DNA from: Allobacillus saliphilus
Lineage (GTDB): Bacteria; Bacillota; Bacilli; Bacillales; Alkalibacillaceae
Length of the DNA: 64,000 nt
NCBI RefSeq assembly: GCF_018138385.1
Contig: NZ_JAGSIE010000009.1
Location: 62,001 to 126,000, forward strand
Direction: 5' to 3'
In this document: positions 15,842 through 20,088 of the stretch, piece after piece
Position numbering within the stretch: position 1 is the stretch's first letter
Layout: each line of letters starts with the position of its first letter
Notes under the pieces: generated by a model
Seen by the model: the letters and a program-made list of their open reading frames with translations, nothing else
The model's database searches: none
Told to the model about the DNA's origin: nothing
Translations under genes and position numbers: made by a program

Positions 15842-16447
15842 ATGAATTATCCAAATGGAAAAAAAGCCACCAAACCAACGGCAATCAATCGCTCGAAAAA
15901 CGTATTGAATACATACGGGAATCGCGGGATGACCCTCGAAAATGAAATTGTCGAAACGAATAAGTTTTATTTAGATACAAATATTGCTGTCATTCATAAA
16001 AAACCAACACCTATTCAAGTCGTACAAGTCGACTATCCGAAACGTAGTGCAGCAACCATTAAAGAAGCCTATTATCGTAGGCCTTCAACGACAGATTTCA
16101 ATGGATTGTATAAAGGCAGATATGTTGACTTTGAAGCAAAAGAAACGAATAATAAGACGTCTTTGCCATTCTCTAATATTCATGAACACCAAGTAGAGCA
16201 TATGCGACGAGTCGATCAACATGGGGGCATTTGTTTTTTCATTATCCGATTTAAACCTTTAAATGAAACTTTTCTGTTGCCAATACGTCCATTTATACGG
16301 GCTTGGGATACAGAATTTGATGGGAAACGTAAATCCCTTCCCTATAACTTTATAAAAGAAAACGGTTTTGAAATTCCTTTTAGATTACAAGCAAAGGTTG
16401 ACTACATCAAAGTCATCGAGAAGGTATACATTAACGGAGGAGATTGA
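15842..16447 (+). CDS. recU: Holliday junction resolvase RecU
   Basis: Cleaves Holliday junctions in recombination and chromosome segregation. 201 residues. The nuclease core is visible as RGMTLENEIVETN (catalytic Glu), PSTTDFNGLYKGRYVDFEAKET (catalytic Asp, the E-x-K pair in DFEAKE), and HQVEHM. The ATG follows GGAAGG. It overlaps the region just before ponA: the recU TGA lies between the ponA ribosome site and its ATG, an arrangement conserved in Bacilli. Confidence 0.96.
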   Translation: MNYPNGKKATKPTAINRSKNVLNTYGNRGMTLENEIVETNKFYLDTNIAVIHKKPTPIQVVQVDYPKRSAATIKEAYYRRPSTTDFNGLYKGRYVDFEAKETNNKTSLPFSNIHEHQVEHMRRVDQHGGICFFIIRFKPLNETFLLPIRPFIRAWDTEFDGKRKSLPYNFIKENGFEIPFRLQAKVDYIKVIEKVYINGGD

Positions 16448-16449
16448 TT

Positions 16450-19137
16450 ATGAGTCAAGAAACAAAAAGTCGAAAGGCTAAGAAACAACAAAATAAAAAG
16501 AAGAAAAAATTTAGTTGGAAAAAATTATTCATCAGCTTATTGATTGTCGGTTTGCTAGGTACTGTGGTTGTTGTCGCGGTCGCAATCTCATTCATTAGCG
16601 ATGCACCAAGCTTGGATGCGGAACAATTAGAAGATCCGCTCTCAACAACAATTGTTGATCGAAACGGTGAATTTGTAGCCGAATTGGGTGCCGAAAAACG
16701 ACGTAAGATTACCTATGAAGATTTGTCGCCATTAATGGAAGACGCTGTCTTGGCTACTGAGGATGTACGATTTTGGGATCATAGTGGAATTGATTTTAGA
16801 CGTACAGCAGCCGCAGTACTTGCGAACATTACCGATGGCTTCGGTTCACAAGGTGGAAGTACGATTACGCAACAAGTGGTCAAAAATGCCTTTTTAACGA
16901 AAGATAAAAAGATTAAACGGAAAGTTCAAGAGCAATACTTGGCGATTCAATTAGAAAAAGAATATTCAAAACAACAAATCTTGATGATGTACTTAAATAA
17001 AATCTATTATGGGAATGGGCTTTATGGTGTTGCGAAAGCTTCCGAAGCTTATTTCGGTAAAAAAGATTTGGGAGAATTGACGATTGCTGAAGCGGCATTA
17101 CTCGCTGGGATTCCACAGCGCCCTTCTGCTTATGATCCAGTCAAGAATCCAGATTTAGCAGAAGAACGTCGGAACACAGTATTGAACTTAATGGTTCATC
17201 ACGGAAAAATTACAGAAGCTCAAGCTGAAGAAGCAAAGCAAGTAAAAGTAGCTGACATGATTCAAGATGATTACGAAACAGAAATACCTTATGATTCATT
17301 CATCGAACAAGTCATACGTGAAACGGAAGATGAATTAGGTGACGATGTCGACATCTTCGCTTCTGGTCTAACCATTCATACGACTCTCGATCGATCAGCA
17401 CAGGAGCAAGTCGAATACTTGTTAAGTGACGAGTCACCTGTCAGCTTCCCAGATGAGGAAATGGAAGCTGGAATTGCTGCAATTGATACGAAAACAGGTG
17501 AAATTCTTGCAATTGGTGGCGGACGAAATAAAAAGGATGGTATTGGTGCTGGGTTTAACTTTGCATTGAACTCAGAGCGTGCACCAGGTTCAGCCATCAA
17601 ACCGATATTGGACTTTGGACCAGCTATCGAGCATTTAAAATGGTCTACGTATCATCAAATGAATGATGAACCCATATCTTTTCCTGATAAAAATGAACCA
17701 ATTCGAAACGCAGGTAGAGGTTATCATGGCTGGATGACAATGCGTGAGGCATTGTACCAATCCTATAACACGACAGCTTACAAAGCGTTTGATGAAGTTG
17801 GTGCTGATAAAGCTTATGAGTTTGCTGAAGGCTTGGGTATGAAAATGCCAGAACACCTCGTCCCCGCTGATTCAATCGGTGGTGGCAAACTGGAAACGAA
17901 TCCACTTGAAATGGCTGGAGCTTTTACAGCCTTTGGTAATGAAGGAATATACAATGAGCCTCACTCAGTCAAAAAAGTTGTTATGAGTGATGGAGAAGAA
18001 ATTGAAATCAATCCAGAGTCTCGTGCAGCGATGTCTGATTACACAGCTTATATGATTACAGATATGTTAAAAGATGTACCTAGAATTGGTACTGGTTCGA
18101 GGTATATCAATGTGAATGTTCCTGTTGCAGCGAAAACAGGTACGACTAATGAAGACAAGGATTCGTGGTTGGTCGGTTATTCAACCAATTTCACGATATC
18201 CGTATGGAGTGGCTACGCTGAGGAACAAAAGTCAATTCCAGATAAATCAATATCGCAACGCTTATTCAGTCAATTGATGAACCACATGTCTGAAGACGTT
18301 GAAACAGCTGATTTTGCAAGACCAAACTCTGTCGTAGAAGTTGCGGTCGAAAAAGGTTCCCGCCCGGCAAAATTAGCAAGTGATTACACGCCATCTGATC
18401 AGATCGTTACAGAGTTGTTCGTTAAAGGTCATGAACCGACTGAAACGTCTGATACTTATGTTGAGATGGATCCCGTTTCTAACTTCCAAGCAGTTTATGA
18501 AGAAGAGGATCAACTCGTTAACTTGTTCTGGGAGCATCCATTACTCGGCGATTCTGATAGAGATATCGAAGTGGAATTCGAATTAAGTGTCTCTGTAGAT
18601 GGAAGTGACATGCAATCTGTTACGACAACTTCTGAGACAGAATTCACATTCGATGAGATTGAACCAGGGTCTACCTATACCTTTGAACTCGTTGCTGTCG
18701 ATGCCAACAATACTGAAAACCGAAGTGATTCTATCACTACCTCGGTAGAAATTCCTGAAGAAGAGGAAGAAGAACCTGAGGAAGAAGAGGAAGAATTAGA
18801 AGAAGATAACGAAGAAGAAAATGAAGGCAACAACGGTAATGGCGAGAATGGTAACGACGGTAATAACGACAATAATGGAAATGGTGACGATGACGGTAAT
18901 AACAATGGAAACAATAATGATGGCGGCGGTAATTCTGGCAACAACTCAGGTGACCAAGATCAAGGAAACAATGAAGGTCAAGGTGATGGAGGAGAACAAG
19001 ATGAAACTGGTGGAGATGGCTCCACGGGAAGTGGTTCTGGTGATGGAAATTCCGCTAATGATGAAGGATCAGATGATACATCAGACTCTTCTTCATCAAC
19101 CAATAAACCTTCGGATAATCAAGATAACGCCGCATAA
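16450..19137 (+). CDS. ponA: Bifunctional penicillin-binding protein 1 (class A) with acidic low-complexity tail
   Basis: 895 residues: a basic cytoplasmic start, a membrane anchor (about residues 26-50), a GT51 glycosyltransferase domain (EDVRFWDHSGID, GGSTITQQ, YLNKIYYG), and a transpeptidase domain with SAIK (in PGSAIKPIL), SYN and KTG (in AAKTGTTNED). An FN3-like domain spans about 690-770. A tail of over 100 residues follows, first Glu-rich, then Asn/Gly/Asp/Ser-rich. The ATG at 16450 has GGAGGAG upstream; a TTG two codons earlier is less likely. PonA works with GpsB. B. subtilis PBP1 also has an Asn-rich tail, but this one is more acidic. Confidence 0.97.
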   Translation: MSQETKSRKAKKQQNKKKKKFSWKKLFISLLIVGLLGTVVVVAVAISFISDAPSLDAEQLEDPLSTTIVDRNGEFVAELGAEKRRKITYEDLSPLMEDAVLATEDVRFWDHSGIDFRRTAAAVLANITDGFGSQGGSTITQQVVKNAFLTKDKKIKRKVQEQYLAIQLEKEYSKQQILMMYLNKIYYGNGLYGVAKASEAYFGKKDLGELTIAEAALLAGIPQRPSAYDPVKNPDLAEERRNTVLNLMVHHGKITEAQAEEAKQVKVADMIQDDYETEIPYDSFIEQVIRETEDELGDDVDIFASGLTIHTTLDRSAQEQVEYLLSDESPVSFPDEEMEAGIAAIDTKTGEILAIGGGRNKKDGIGAGFNFALNSERAPGSAIKPILDFGPAIEHLKWSTYHQMNDEPISFPDKNEPIRNAGRGYHGWMTMREALYQSYNTTAYKAFDEVGADKAYEFAEGLGMKMPEHLVPADSIGGGKLETNPLEMAGAFTAFGNEGIYNEPHSVKKVVMSDGEEIEINPESRAAMSDYTAYMITDMLKDVPRIGTGSRYINVNVPVAAKTGTTNEDKDSWLVGYSTNFTISVWSGYAEEQKSIPDKSISQRLFSQLMNHMSEDVETADFARPNSVVEVAVEKGSRPAKLASDYTPSDQIVTELFVKGHEPTETSDTYVEMDPVSNFQAVYEEEDQLVNLFWEHPLLGDSDRDIEVEFELSVSVDGSDMQSVTTTSETEFTFDEIEPGSTYTFELVAVDANNTENRSDSITTSVEIPEEEEEEPEEEEEELEEDNEEENEGNNGNGENGNDGNNDNNGNGDDDGNNNGNNNDGGGNSGNNSGDQDQGNNEGQGDGGEQDETGGDGSTGSGSGDGNSANDEGSDDTSDSSSSTNKPSDNQDNAA

Positions 19138-19148
19138 TTAGATATAAA

Positions 19149-19183
19149 AAAGACATTGAGATTTCGTTCTCAATGTCTTTTTT
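19149..19183 (+). terminator. Intrinsic terminator after ponA
   Basis: AAAGACATTGAGA / TCTCAATGTCTTT with a six-base loop, followed by four more T residues. Confidence 0.93.
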
Positions 19184-19241
19184 TGTAAATTTATTTTCGG
19201 GCTACTCCCTGAGTGTATGTCTTTAAGGTTACTATGCATTT

Positions 19242-19388
19242 CTTCAACATTAATTGGCAAAGCTTCAACATTCTTTTTCTTTCCTTCAACGTTCATTAGC
19301 TGAGCTTCAACATTATCTTTCAATTCTTCAACATTAATCAATCGTTCTTCAACATTAATCTAGAGATCTTCAAACTATGTAAAGCCAG
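19242..19388. repeat. Seven-copy 21-bp periodic repeat with a conserved CTTCAACATT core
   Basis: The decamer CTTCAACATT (once CTTCAACGTT, last copy CTTCAAACTA) starts at 19242, 19263, 19284, 19305, 19326, 19347 and 19368, exactly every 21 bases; the 11 bases between cores vary. On the minus strand each core reads Asn-Val-Glu in one frame with a seven-codon period. That frame is open from 19358 to 19138, but has no ribosome site and runs through the ponA terminator. It fills the 285-base space between convergent ponA and nth together with the two terminators. I cannot decide between a protein-binding array and a degenerate peptide gene. Confidence 0.85.
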
Positions 19389-19407
19389 CTTTTCAAAAGA
19401 AGCTGGC
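19384..19407 (-). terminator. Probable terminator after nth
   Basis: GCCAGCTT / AAGCTGGC with an eight-base loop and TTTACA following on the minus strand; the U tract is short. Confidence 0.65.
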
Positions 19408-19422
19408 GATTGCTTAGTTCAG

Positions 19423-20088
19423 TTACGTTTTCGAAATGACTTCCCTCTTCTTCATTCGCTTTTTCCCTTCCCTACAAAGCTCTAACAAAGGACACTCAGG
19501 ACAGTTTGGTGACTTTGCCCTACAATGATAGCGCCCAAAGAAAATCATTCGATGATGTGTATCGCTCCATTCTTCCTCTGGAATTTTACGCATCAATGTT
19601 TTTTCTACTTCAAGTACAGAGTCCTTCCATCGACAAATGCCTAATCGCTTTGAAACTCGTTCGACATGTGTATCAACGGCTATTGCTGGCTTGCCAAAAG
19701 CAACGGACATTACGACGTTTGCCGTTTTTCTACCTACACCAGCTAACCCAATTAATTGATCATAATTATTCGGTACTTGGCCGTTATAATTTGCTATTAA
19801 GTCTTCAGATAGTTTGCGAATGTTTTTTGCTTTACTTCTAAATAATCCAATTCGTCGAATATCGTTTTCCAACTCTTCTAATGGTACATTTAAATAGTCT
19901 TCTGGTGACTTATACTTCTTGAATAAATCCGGCGTTACTTTATTTATGAGAGCATCTGTTGCTTGCGCTGATAAAACAACAGCAATTAATAATTCAAATT
20001 CGTTTGAATGAGTCAATTCACATTCAGCATCCGGAAACATCTCTTCAAATGTATCTAAAACGACTCTTATTTGTTTTTTGTTCAGCAA
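19423..20088 (-). CDS. nth: Endonuclease III (DNA glycosylase/AP lyase)
   Basis: Excises oxidised pyrimidines and nicks the abasic site. 221 residues. The helix-hairpin-helix LAGVGRKTANVVMS contains the catalytic Lys; VDTHVERVSKRLG contains the catalytic Asp. The 4Fe-4S cluster is C-x6-C-x2-C-x5-C, visible as CRAKSPNCPECPLLELC. It is 13 bases downstream of dnaD, as in B. subtilis. Confidence 0.97.
   Translation of the reverse strand: MLNKKQIRVVLDTFEEMFPDAECELTHSNEFELLIAVVLSAQATDALINKVTPDLFKKYKSPEDYLNVPLEELENDIRRIGLFRSKAKNIRKLSEDLIANYNGQVPNNYDQLIGLAGVGRKTANVVMSVAFGKPAIAVDTHVERVSKRLGICRWKDSVLEVEKTLMRKIPEEEWSDTHHRMIFFGRYHCRAKSPNCPECPLLELCREGKKRMKKREVISKT

Follow-up and report, generated by a model that had tools for sequence, protein, structure and literature searches.

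A dispersed array of 21-bp units between ponA and nth in Allobacillus saliphilus: a putative helix-phased set of protein-binding sites

Two convergent genes of Allobacillus saliphilus, a ponA-type penicillin-binding protein gene (16444..19137, plus strand; Transgly, Transpeptidase, and fn3 by Pfam) and an nth-type endonuclease III gene (19423..20088, minus strand; HhH-GPD by Pfam), are separated by a short direct repeat with a period of 21 bp. Positions refer to the window, i.e., the whole 64,000-nucleotide stretch of DNA that was analysed, in which a DnaD-type gene and a class II (D/K/N) tRNA synthetase gene are further neighbours. A step of 21 bp is two helical turns and also seven codons, and the initial annotation had considered both a protein-binding array on one face of the DNA and a repeating Asn-Val-Glu (NVE) peptide. 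The locus raises the question of whether such a repeat acts as peptide, as RNA, or as DNA, or is a selfish or neutral satellite.

Motif scanning and ortholog comparison delimited an array at 19221..19388, with no strand assigned; of its eight units of 21 bp, the two at the ends are degenerate and the six between them are good. On the plus strand, the core CTTCAACATT is matched exactly at 19242..19251, 19263..19272, 19305..19314, 19326..19335, and 19347..19356, and a degenerate scan places CTTCAACGTT, with a single change, at 19284..19293; the minus-strand reading of the window core is AATGTTGAAG. The same scan finds a degenerate core, CTTTAAGGTT, on the edge towards ponA (19221..19230, plus strand), and the sequence and the ortholog alignment mark CTTCAAACTA at the nth-side edge (19368..19377, plus strand). 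The location and the 21-bp spacing proved to be as annotated initially; of the seven cores then counted, five are exact and one carries the single change, whereas the seventh (19368) is off by several bases, and the degenerate copy at 19221 had been left out of the unit list. The exact core occurs 5 times in the 64-kb window against 0.35 expected, a number reached in 0 of 100 shuffles, and degenerate core pairs 21 bp apart (up to two mismatches) occur 6 times against 0.04 expected. Tandem Repeats Finder scores a 42-bp row (124) at the array above three 21-bp rows (62, 77, and 70). The ortholog array in a second genome of the genus (G001) lies at the same position, with no indels within it. The acidic Asn/Gly-rich C-terminal tail of ponA (18757-19137), unlike the adjoining array, differs by many indels between the two species. 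The array sits between two hairpins: a strong, terminator-like one of ponA outside the array (19148..19186, plus strand; 14-pair stem followed by a T run; -17.9 kcal/mol, z -7.62), and a weaker one 3′ of nth (19384..19407, minus strand; -13.4 kcal/mol, z -2.29, with 6 of 200 shuffles as good), which is possibly the nth terminator and overlaps the last degenerate unit by approximately 5 bases. Both were missed by a simple terminator scan, which listed another weak site at 19196-19213.

The initial annotation had held that many intergenic copies would support a mobile or regulatory repeat, and genome motif searches indeed found many, both in this genome and in its relative. In the genome holding the window (G000; 2.54 Mb in 80 contigs), core pairs 21 bp apart with up to three mismatches number 86, against 2 for the reversed pattern. 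Exact CTTCARYRKT pairs at this spacing number 144 in G000 and 133 in G001, and TATCRRCAGT pairs with one mismatch number 151 and 220, respectively; the reversed-pattern controls gave 0. The stretches examined contain at least 75 runs of three or more units (at least 33 in G000 and at least 42 in G001), in which loci L037 and L096 each enter twice owing to a phase break. The runs span 3-27 units, and only three of the 75 have just 3; genes were called from ORFs, and the two Allobacillus genomes cannot count as independent. Three subfamilies are distinguished on the minus-strand reading, namely N (AAYVYTGAAG), TE (ACTRYTGAAG), and TD (ACTGYYGATA), and TE and TD units occur in one phase within a single array at L048. 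The sequence family is common to Allobacillus species; the 20 further genomes searched in the same taxonomic family had between 0 and 2 pairs each. For Allobacillus salarius SKP4-8, two of the three loci compared align to G000 at approximately 93-99%. Among ten matching loci, four belong to Allobacillus and six to Bacteroidota or Clostridia, with repeats that differ by eye. A second dispersed element was observed 3′ of TE arrays at L046, L047, L049, and L050 (matches of 43-123 bp at 71-80%); by eye, it ends in a terminator-like inverted repeat near CGAACGATTT.

The peptide reading can be given almost no credence. It would make the array a small heptad-repeat protein, encoded on the minus strand by a short gene for a coiled coil, and translation does return N-V-E every seven codons on that strand in the window, within a frame that stays open for 67 codons (19138..19341, minus strand, TTG start). 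Furthermore, CTTCARYRTT matched viral contigs three times, and two of these (L205 and L206) carry NVE-heptad coding frames with ENVEDIQ repeats, which serve as a yardstick for translated repeats; the third (L207) has no open frame of more than 150 codons among those listed. Stop-free arrays in the NVE frame are frequent in TD (15 of 20) and TE (6 of 8), but only 6 of 47 N arrays are free of stops, the window ORF has no Pfam match, and its frame is broken by stops in the G001 ortholog, so that the open frame is not conserved between the species; the ORF was judged to be no gene. In-frame stops also lie near the frequency obtained by shuffling columns: 75 of 419 N units against 81.8 ± 5.7 (62 of 500 shuffles as low), 3 of 68 TE units against 5.8 (51 of 500), and 7 of 272 TD units against 11.5 ± 2.8 (29 of 500). 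All three values are a little below the shuffle mean; stops may be weakly in deficit, but they are not clearly avoided. In N units, which were picked on their core, the third codon of the triplet, Glu, is almost always GAA (403 of 414), and GAG does not occur. A translated heptad was consequently rejected.

Column tables describe the unit as a conserved core and a spacer of 6-8 weakly constrained bases, and the short sequence shared by the units is partly built into them by the choice of units on the core. In N units, positions 1, 2, and 6-10 hold 1.67-2.00 bits, positions 3-5 are variable (0.48-1.41 bits), positions 19-21 hold 0.57-1.27 bits, and positions 11-18 hold 0.02-0.64 bits. The free positions of TD units are 13-18 (0.06-0.58 bits), and in TE units positions 11-12 are conserved too. 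Between the two species, 101 of 1560 core sites (0.065 per site) and 297 of 1248 spacer sites (0.238 per site) are changed over the same 156 aligned unit pairs, against 290 of 1950 sites (0.149 per site) in the intergenic flanks of the array loci; the core thus changes more slowly than the flank, and the spacer faster. These rates come from 21 locus pairs and from unit pairs with at most 7 differences, more divergent or unaligned units being dropped; some edge units are flank, and L033 and L039 were matched to L081 on one side only. The excess of the spacer rate over the flank may arise from misaligned units. At positions 19-21, 76 of 468 sites are changed, which is nearly the flank level; because of this, and because positions 11-12 are conserved in TE, the limits of the core are soft.

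The period is mostly exact. Among core-to-core steps within 70 bp, 678 are exactly 21 bp, a count biased upward because the detector favours runs in phase; the steps next in frequency are 42 (8 cases), 52 (7), 10 (6), 36 (6), and 12 (4), followed by 20, 30, 63, and 69 (3 each), and among the 25 commonest values a step of 23 appears twice and one of 19 once. Phase breaks are found at L037 and L096, and, by eye, a 10-base deletion separates the edge of L038 from that of L085. In the intergenic flanks, by comparison, 290 substitutions are accompanied by 20 gap events. The many copies, the 21-bp phase, and the constrained core support the dispersed repeat and the array on one face of the DNA that the initial annotation had envisaged, with binding itself as a prediction.

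Placement relative to genes bears on whether the arrays act as transcript or as DNA. Array-bearing gaps in Allobacillus are co-directional in 44 cases, convergent in 21, and divergent in 5, compared with 53, 11, and 24 among array-free gaps of at least 60 bp at the same loci; for convergent versus divergent gaps, the P value is 0.0002 with both genomes pooled, which is too small because ortholog pairs are counted. By genome, 10 runs are convergent and 2 divergent in G000, and 12 and 4 in G001. Divergent gene pairs are avoided, and the orientation of the arrays ignores gene direction: in co-directional gaps the strand of the array agrees with that of the genes in 21 cases and disagrees in 24 (P 0.77). 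When array and genes share a strand, a terminator on that strand lies upstream of the array in 9 of 21 cases and downstream in 0; when the strands are opposite, it is upstream on the array strand in 0 of 24 and downstream on the gene strand in 11 of 24. Terminators therefore track the gene that ends at the array and not the strand of the array. Strand-bound roles in Allobacillus, such as Rho-utilisation sites or 3′-UTR elements, were rejected because orientation to the genes is even.

A function at the RNA level, in which transcribed arrays would serve as small RNAs, sponges, or 3′ ends for an RNA-binding protein, is improbable. It could draw on the 52-nt arrays of Bacillus coagulans, which are reported as transcribed in the available portions of PMC8161180 and PMC8625621. 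In addition, the minus strand of the window array contains two weak promoter-like sites (the region has 3, with 1.4 expected), and no terminator was found by the scan at 41 of the 86 gene ends that face arrays. At the other 45 of the 86, however, a terminator precedes the array, compared with 26 of 75 control ends, and the window array itself has a hairpin on each side. The even orientation to genes (21 versus 24) also argues against this possibility, as do the lack of a stable fold of the array on either strand (z +1.35 and +0.03) and the lack of a pairing signal in the spacers. No near-threshold match to Rfam was found, the one CsrC match (12.4 bits; cut-off 61) falling on the ponA terminator stretch. 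Hairpins in which adjacent spacers would pair and the core would form the loop were considered and rejected, no register being clearly above expectation at lag 1; the largest excesses of complementarity were 0.417 versus 0.348 in TE and 0.297 versus 0.254 in TD.

The turnover of units speaks for a satellite. Array positions are often common to both species, and copy number differs by whole units: by two units at L110/L094 (twice), L038/L085, and L047/L076, by two and four units in the first array and two in the second at L036/L054, and by one at L045/L059, with 3 versus 19 units at one locus. Of twelve loci that lacked a partner stretch and were matched by their flanks, eight also have an array in the other genome, although at one of these eight the flanks are 2.7 kb apart; one lacks it (L101 of G000 versus L135 of G001), and three end at contig ends or have no clear flank. 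The type of core also varies with locus and species, L034 being mostly AATGTTGAAG and its G001 partner L087 mostly AACACTGAAG or AACCCTGAAG. The left flank of L033 matches the G001 locus L100 and its right flank L081, which is either a rearrangement with its breakpoint at the array or an assembly error.

Spacers in all three subfamilies are more alike within arrays than between them, as in satellites, and this likeness has a 42-bp superstructure. Spacer identity at even versus odd lags is 0.65, 0.63, and 0.61 versus 0.42, 0.42, and 0.41 in TD (random pairs 0.39), 0.50, 0.45, and 0.45 versus 0.40, 0.43, and 0.42 in N (random pairs 0.35), and 0.67, 0.68, and 0.65 versus 0.57, 0.61, and 0.61 in TE (random pairs 0.49). 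The even-odd contrast amounts to 0.213 in TD (permutation standard deviation 0.013, i.e., approximately 16 standard deviations) and 0.060 in N (0.009; approximately 6), and to 0.188 and 0.053, respectively, without near-identical units; in TE, a contrast of 0.067 is indistinguishable from permutations, the largest of which reached 0.127. It is positive in 14 of 18 TD, 28 of 45 N, and 5 of 6 TE arrays. In a simple reading, mispairing at the more similar even lags keeps the alternation going.

These observations would fit a selfish or neutral satellite that changes by slippage or unequal exchange of whole units, often of 42 bp, and occasionally seeds new loci; it would be tolerated where promoters are unharmed, with which the avoidance of divergent gaps agrees, and its core would be kept by the needs of copying and not of the cell. 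This alternative is possible, if doubtful. Whole-unit differences between close relatives, the alternation in two subfamilies, and the differences in core type count in its favour, but turnover of whole units would not by itself preserve the core while randomising the spacer. Neither did the viral and plasmid searches disclose a phage or plasmid carrier: the viral contigs hold no TCGCGG or TATCRACAGT triple, plasmid matches are confined to the ponA terminator stretch, and a phage search with one TD array gave no match. A further difficulty comes from another genus, g73, in which the number of units is near constant, with 5 in 13 of 13 runs by the threshold used, and spacer identity is low (0.21-0.37 over lags; 0.353 at lag 1 and 0.365 at lag 2), a range given with no random baseline; a comparison of lags 1 and 2 showed no 42-bp alternation there. 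CCAGT directly precedes the first core in 7 of the 12 g73 arrays listed, a near variant does so in 2, and neither in 3; by eye, degenerate out-of-phase copies follow the array at L186, L189, and L192. Five-unit arrays after CCAGT were seen at L187-L190, L192, L193, and L197, several with an inverted repeat CTGGAAA...TTTCCAG by eye.

Arrays with other cores occur in other Bacillales. The published repeat signal of B. weihaiensis is TCGCGG (PMC8161180, available portion), and three copies of it at 21-bp steps are present in 16 of 299 genomes drawn from the order, a search with a published motif that tells nothing about the frequency of other motifs. The 20 stretches examined hold 21 runs and 106 units, one run being an opposite-strand reading of the L204 array that adds 6 of the 106. 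Their core is TCGCGGRWTT, spacer positions 12-17 hold 0.00-0.19 bits, and stops fall in every frame (10-69 of the 106 units); the anatomy of core and spacer is the same as in Allobacillus. In three array pairs of another genus, flank-matched by eye, 16 of 165 core sites and 53 of 150 spacer sites are changed. Gaps with TCGCGG arrays are co-directional in 11 cases, convergent in 7, and divergent in 3, compared with 16, 4, and 11 array-free gaps; orientation is with the genes in 7 and against them in 4 (3 once the double reading of L204 is dropped), too few arrays for orientation to be called even. Counted from dnaA, 15 of 18 arrays of G276 (P 0.004), 7 of 8 of G133 (P 0.035), 5 of 7 of G066 (P 0.23), and 6 of 7 of G297 (by hand, length rounded) lie in the origin half. 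Terminus regions often hold younger DNA, and for this reason, and because G276/G066 and G133/G297 are each one genus and G276 is in five contigs, the bias is a lead only; like the five-unit count of g73, it was noticed by inspection and not predicted. A signal of replication direction in these four genomes (25 leading and 15 lagging relative to dnaA, by hand) was dropped. Three copies of CTTCWAC at 21 bp (one mismatch) occur at least once in 82 of the 299 genomes. They are dense, with counts of 10 or more, in G000, G127, and G270 (in the last chiefly through one array) and in 8 of the 10 genomes drawn from genus g21 of family f10; reversed controls reached up to 11 in one genome (10 and 1 in G065), so that low counts mean little. 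In G030, the CTTCTAC-type arrays L068-L071 have approximately 6 units in similar order at different loci, and L071 has three runs, two of them adjoined, by eye, by stem-loop-like sequence.

A constrained core and period, nearly free spacers, and, in Allobacillus, even orientation are what is expected of a DNA-binding array on one helix face. The main reading, to which a probability of about one half is assigned, is accordingly worded as a noncoding array of putative binding sites for a sequence-specific DNA-binding protein, acting as DNA. Each 21-bp unit would comprise a recognition core (approximately 13 bp in N, three of them variable) and a nearly free spacer of approximately 8 bp. With steps of 21 bp, all cores would lie on one side of the helix, which could bring adjacent protein molecules into contact and let them bind cooperatively. 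The intergenic position, often just past terminators and in either orientation, suggests that the arrays act at the level of DNA rather than within a transcript; the protein patch may organise or anchor the nucleoid or insulate neighbouring transcription units. Against such a binding array, one genome contains three types of core and the cores of other genera differ again, so that a single protein would need tolerance or several proteins would be needed; moreover, copy number varies, one array is absent in the relative, the spacers are satellite-like, and the phase is not absolute. A broader reading, speculative and rather unlikely, is that Bacillales lineages independently keep genome-wide sets of phased operators for chromosomal DNA-binding proteins that change fast: the core differs while the 21-bp step and the core-plus-spacer anatomy are the same, placement in Allobacillus is indifferent to strand, and in two TCGCGG genera the origin half has the higher density of arrays. 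If true, the arrays would form a system for nucleoid organisation or insulation that has so far escaped recognition, with a fixed geometry and a recognition sequence that is replaced from genus to genus. The results narrow the function: they disfavour peptides as well as RNA that is structured or tied to one strand, and they favour a helix-phased binding array with a constrained core at the level of DNA. The arrays furthermore make clean test objects, being short, with a core that is fixed and spacers that are almost unconstrained, so that core and spacing can be changed separately.

Several known systems resemble the Allobacillus arrays. Iterons of theta-replicating plasmids are direct repeats of approximately two helical turns with a conserved core and a spacer and are bound on the same face; the Allobacillus arrays are instead dispersed over the chromosome, and the window array adjoins no rep gene and origin, its neighbours being the ponA, nth, DnaD-type, and tRNA synthetase genes. 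Enterobacterial REP/BIME are dispersed intergenic elements at gene ends that are rare between divergent genes, a distribution shared by the Allobacillus arrays; REPs are palindromic, whereas the Allobacillus units are not and show no complementarity or fold signal. The closest likeness is to the 20-21-nt tandem repeats described by Subirana and Messeguer (PMC8161180), which, in the portion of that work available, are constant in size, variable in sequence, and mostly noncoding, with a repeat length of two helical turns, for which nucleoid proteins or small RNAs are suggested and the function of constant-length repeats is stated to be an open question. Related literature comprises PMC6749651, PMC8625621, and PMC13234807, each available in part, and a J Bacteriol 2020 article as cited by others; no work settling the function of these repeats was found in the open-licence literature. 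The 52-nt Bacillus repeats are likewise constant in size, variable in sequence, and noncoding in the accessible text of PMC8161180, but have a period of 52 and not 21. The Allobacillus arrays share with the 20-21-nt class, as far as the same text describes it, constant length (within 70 bp, 678 core-to-core steps measure 21 and only 3 measure 20), at least 4 repeats (six good units in the window), several families of one length per genome (N, TE, and TD), a short characteristic sequence in all repeats, here partly built in by selection on the core, and a generally noncoding nature. Restriction to particular species, another feature of the class, may apply as well: the sequence is common to Allobacillus species, yet CTTCWAC at 21 bp is also dense in genus g21, G127, and G270. 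Allobacillus is not named among the hosts in that portion of PMC8161180. The kind of repeat is thus already published, and what the present analysis adds to the part of PMC8161180 available is the contrast of core and spacer between orthologs with its rates between species, the exactness of the 21-bp step, the orientation and its relation to terminators, the avoidance of divergent gene pairs, the alternation that forms a 42-bp superstructure, and the near-constant five-unit arrays.
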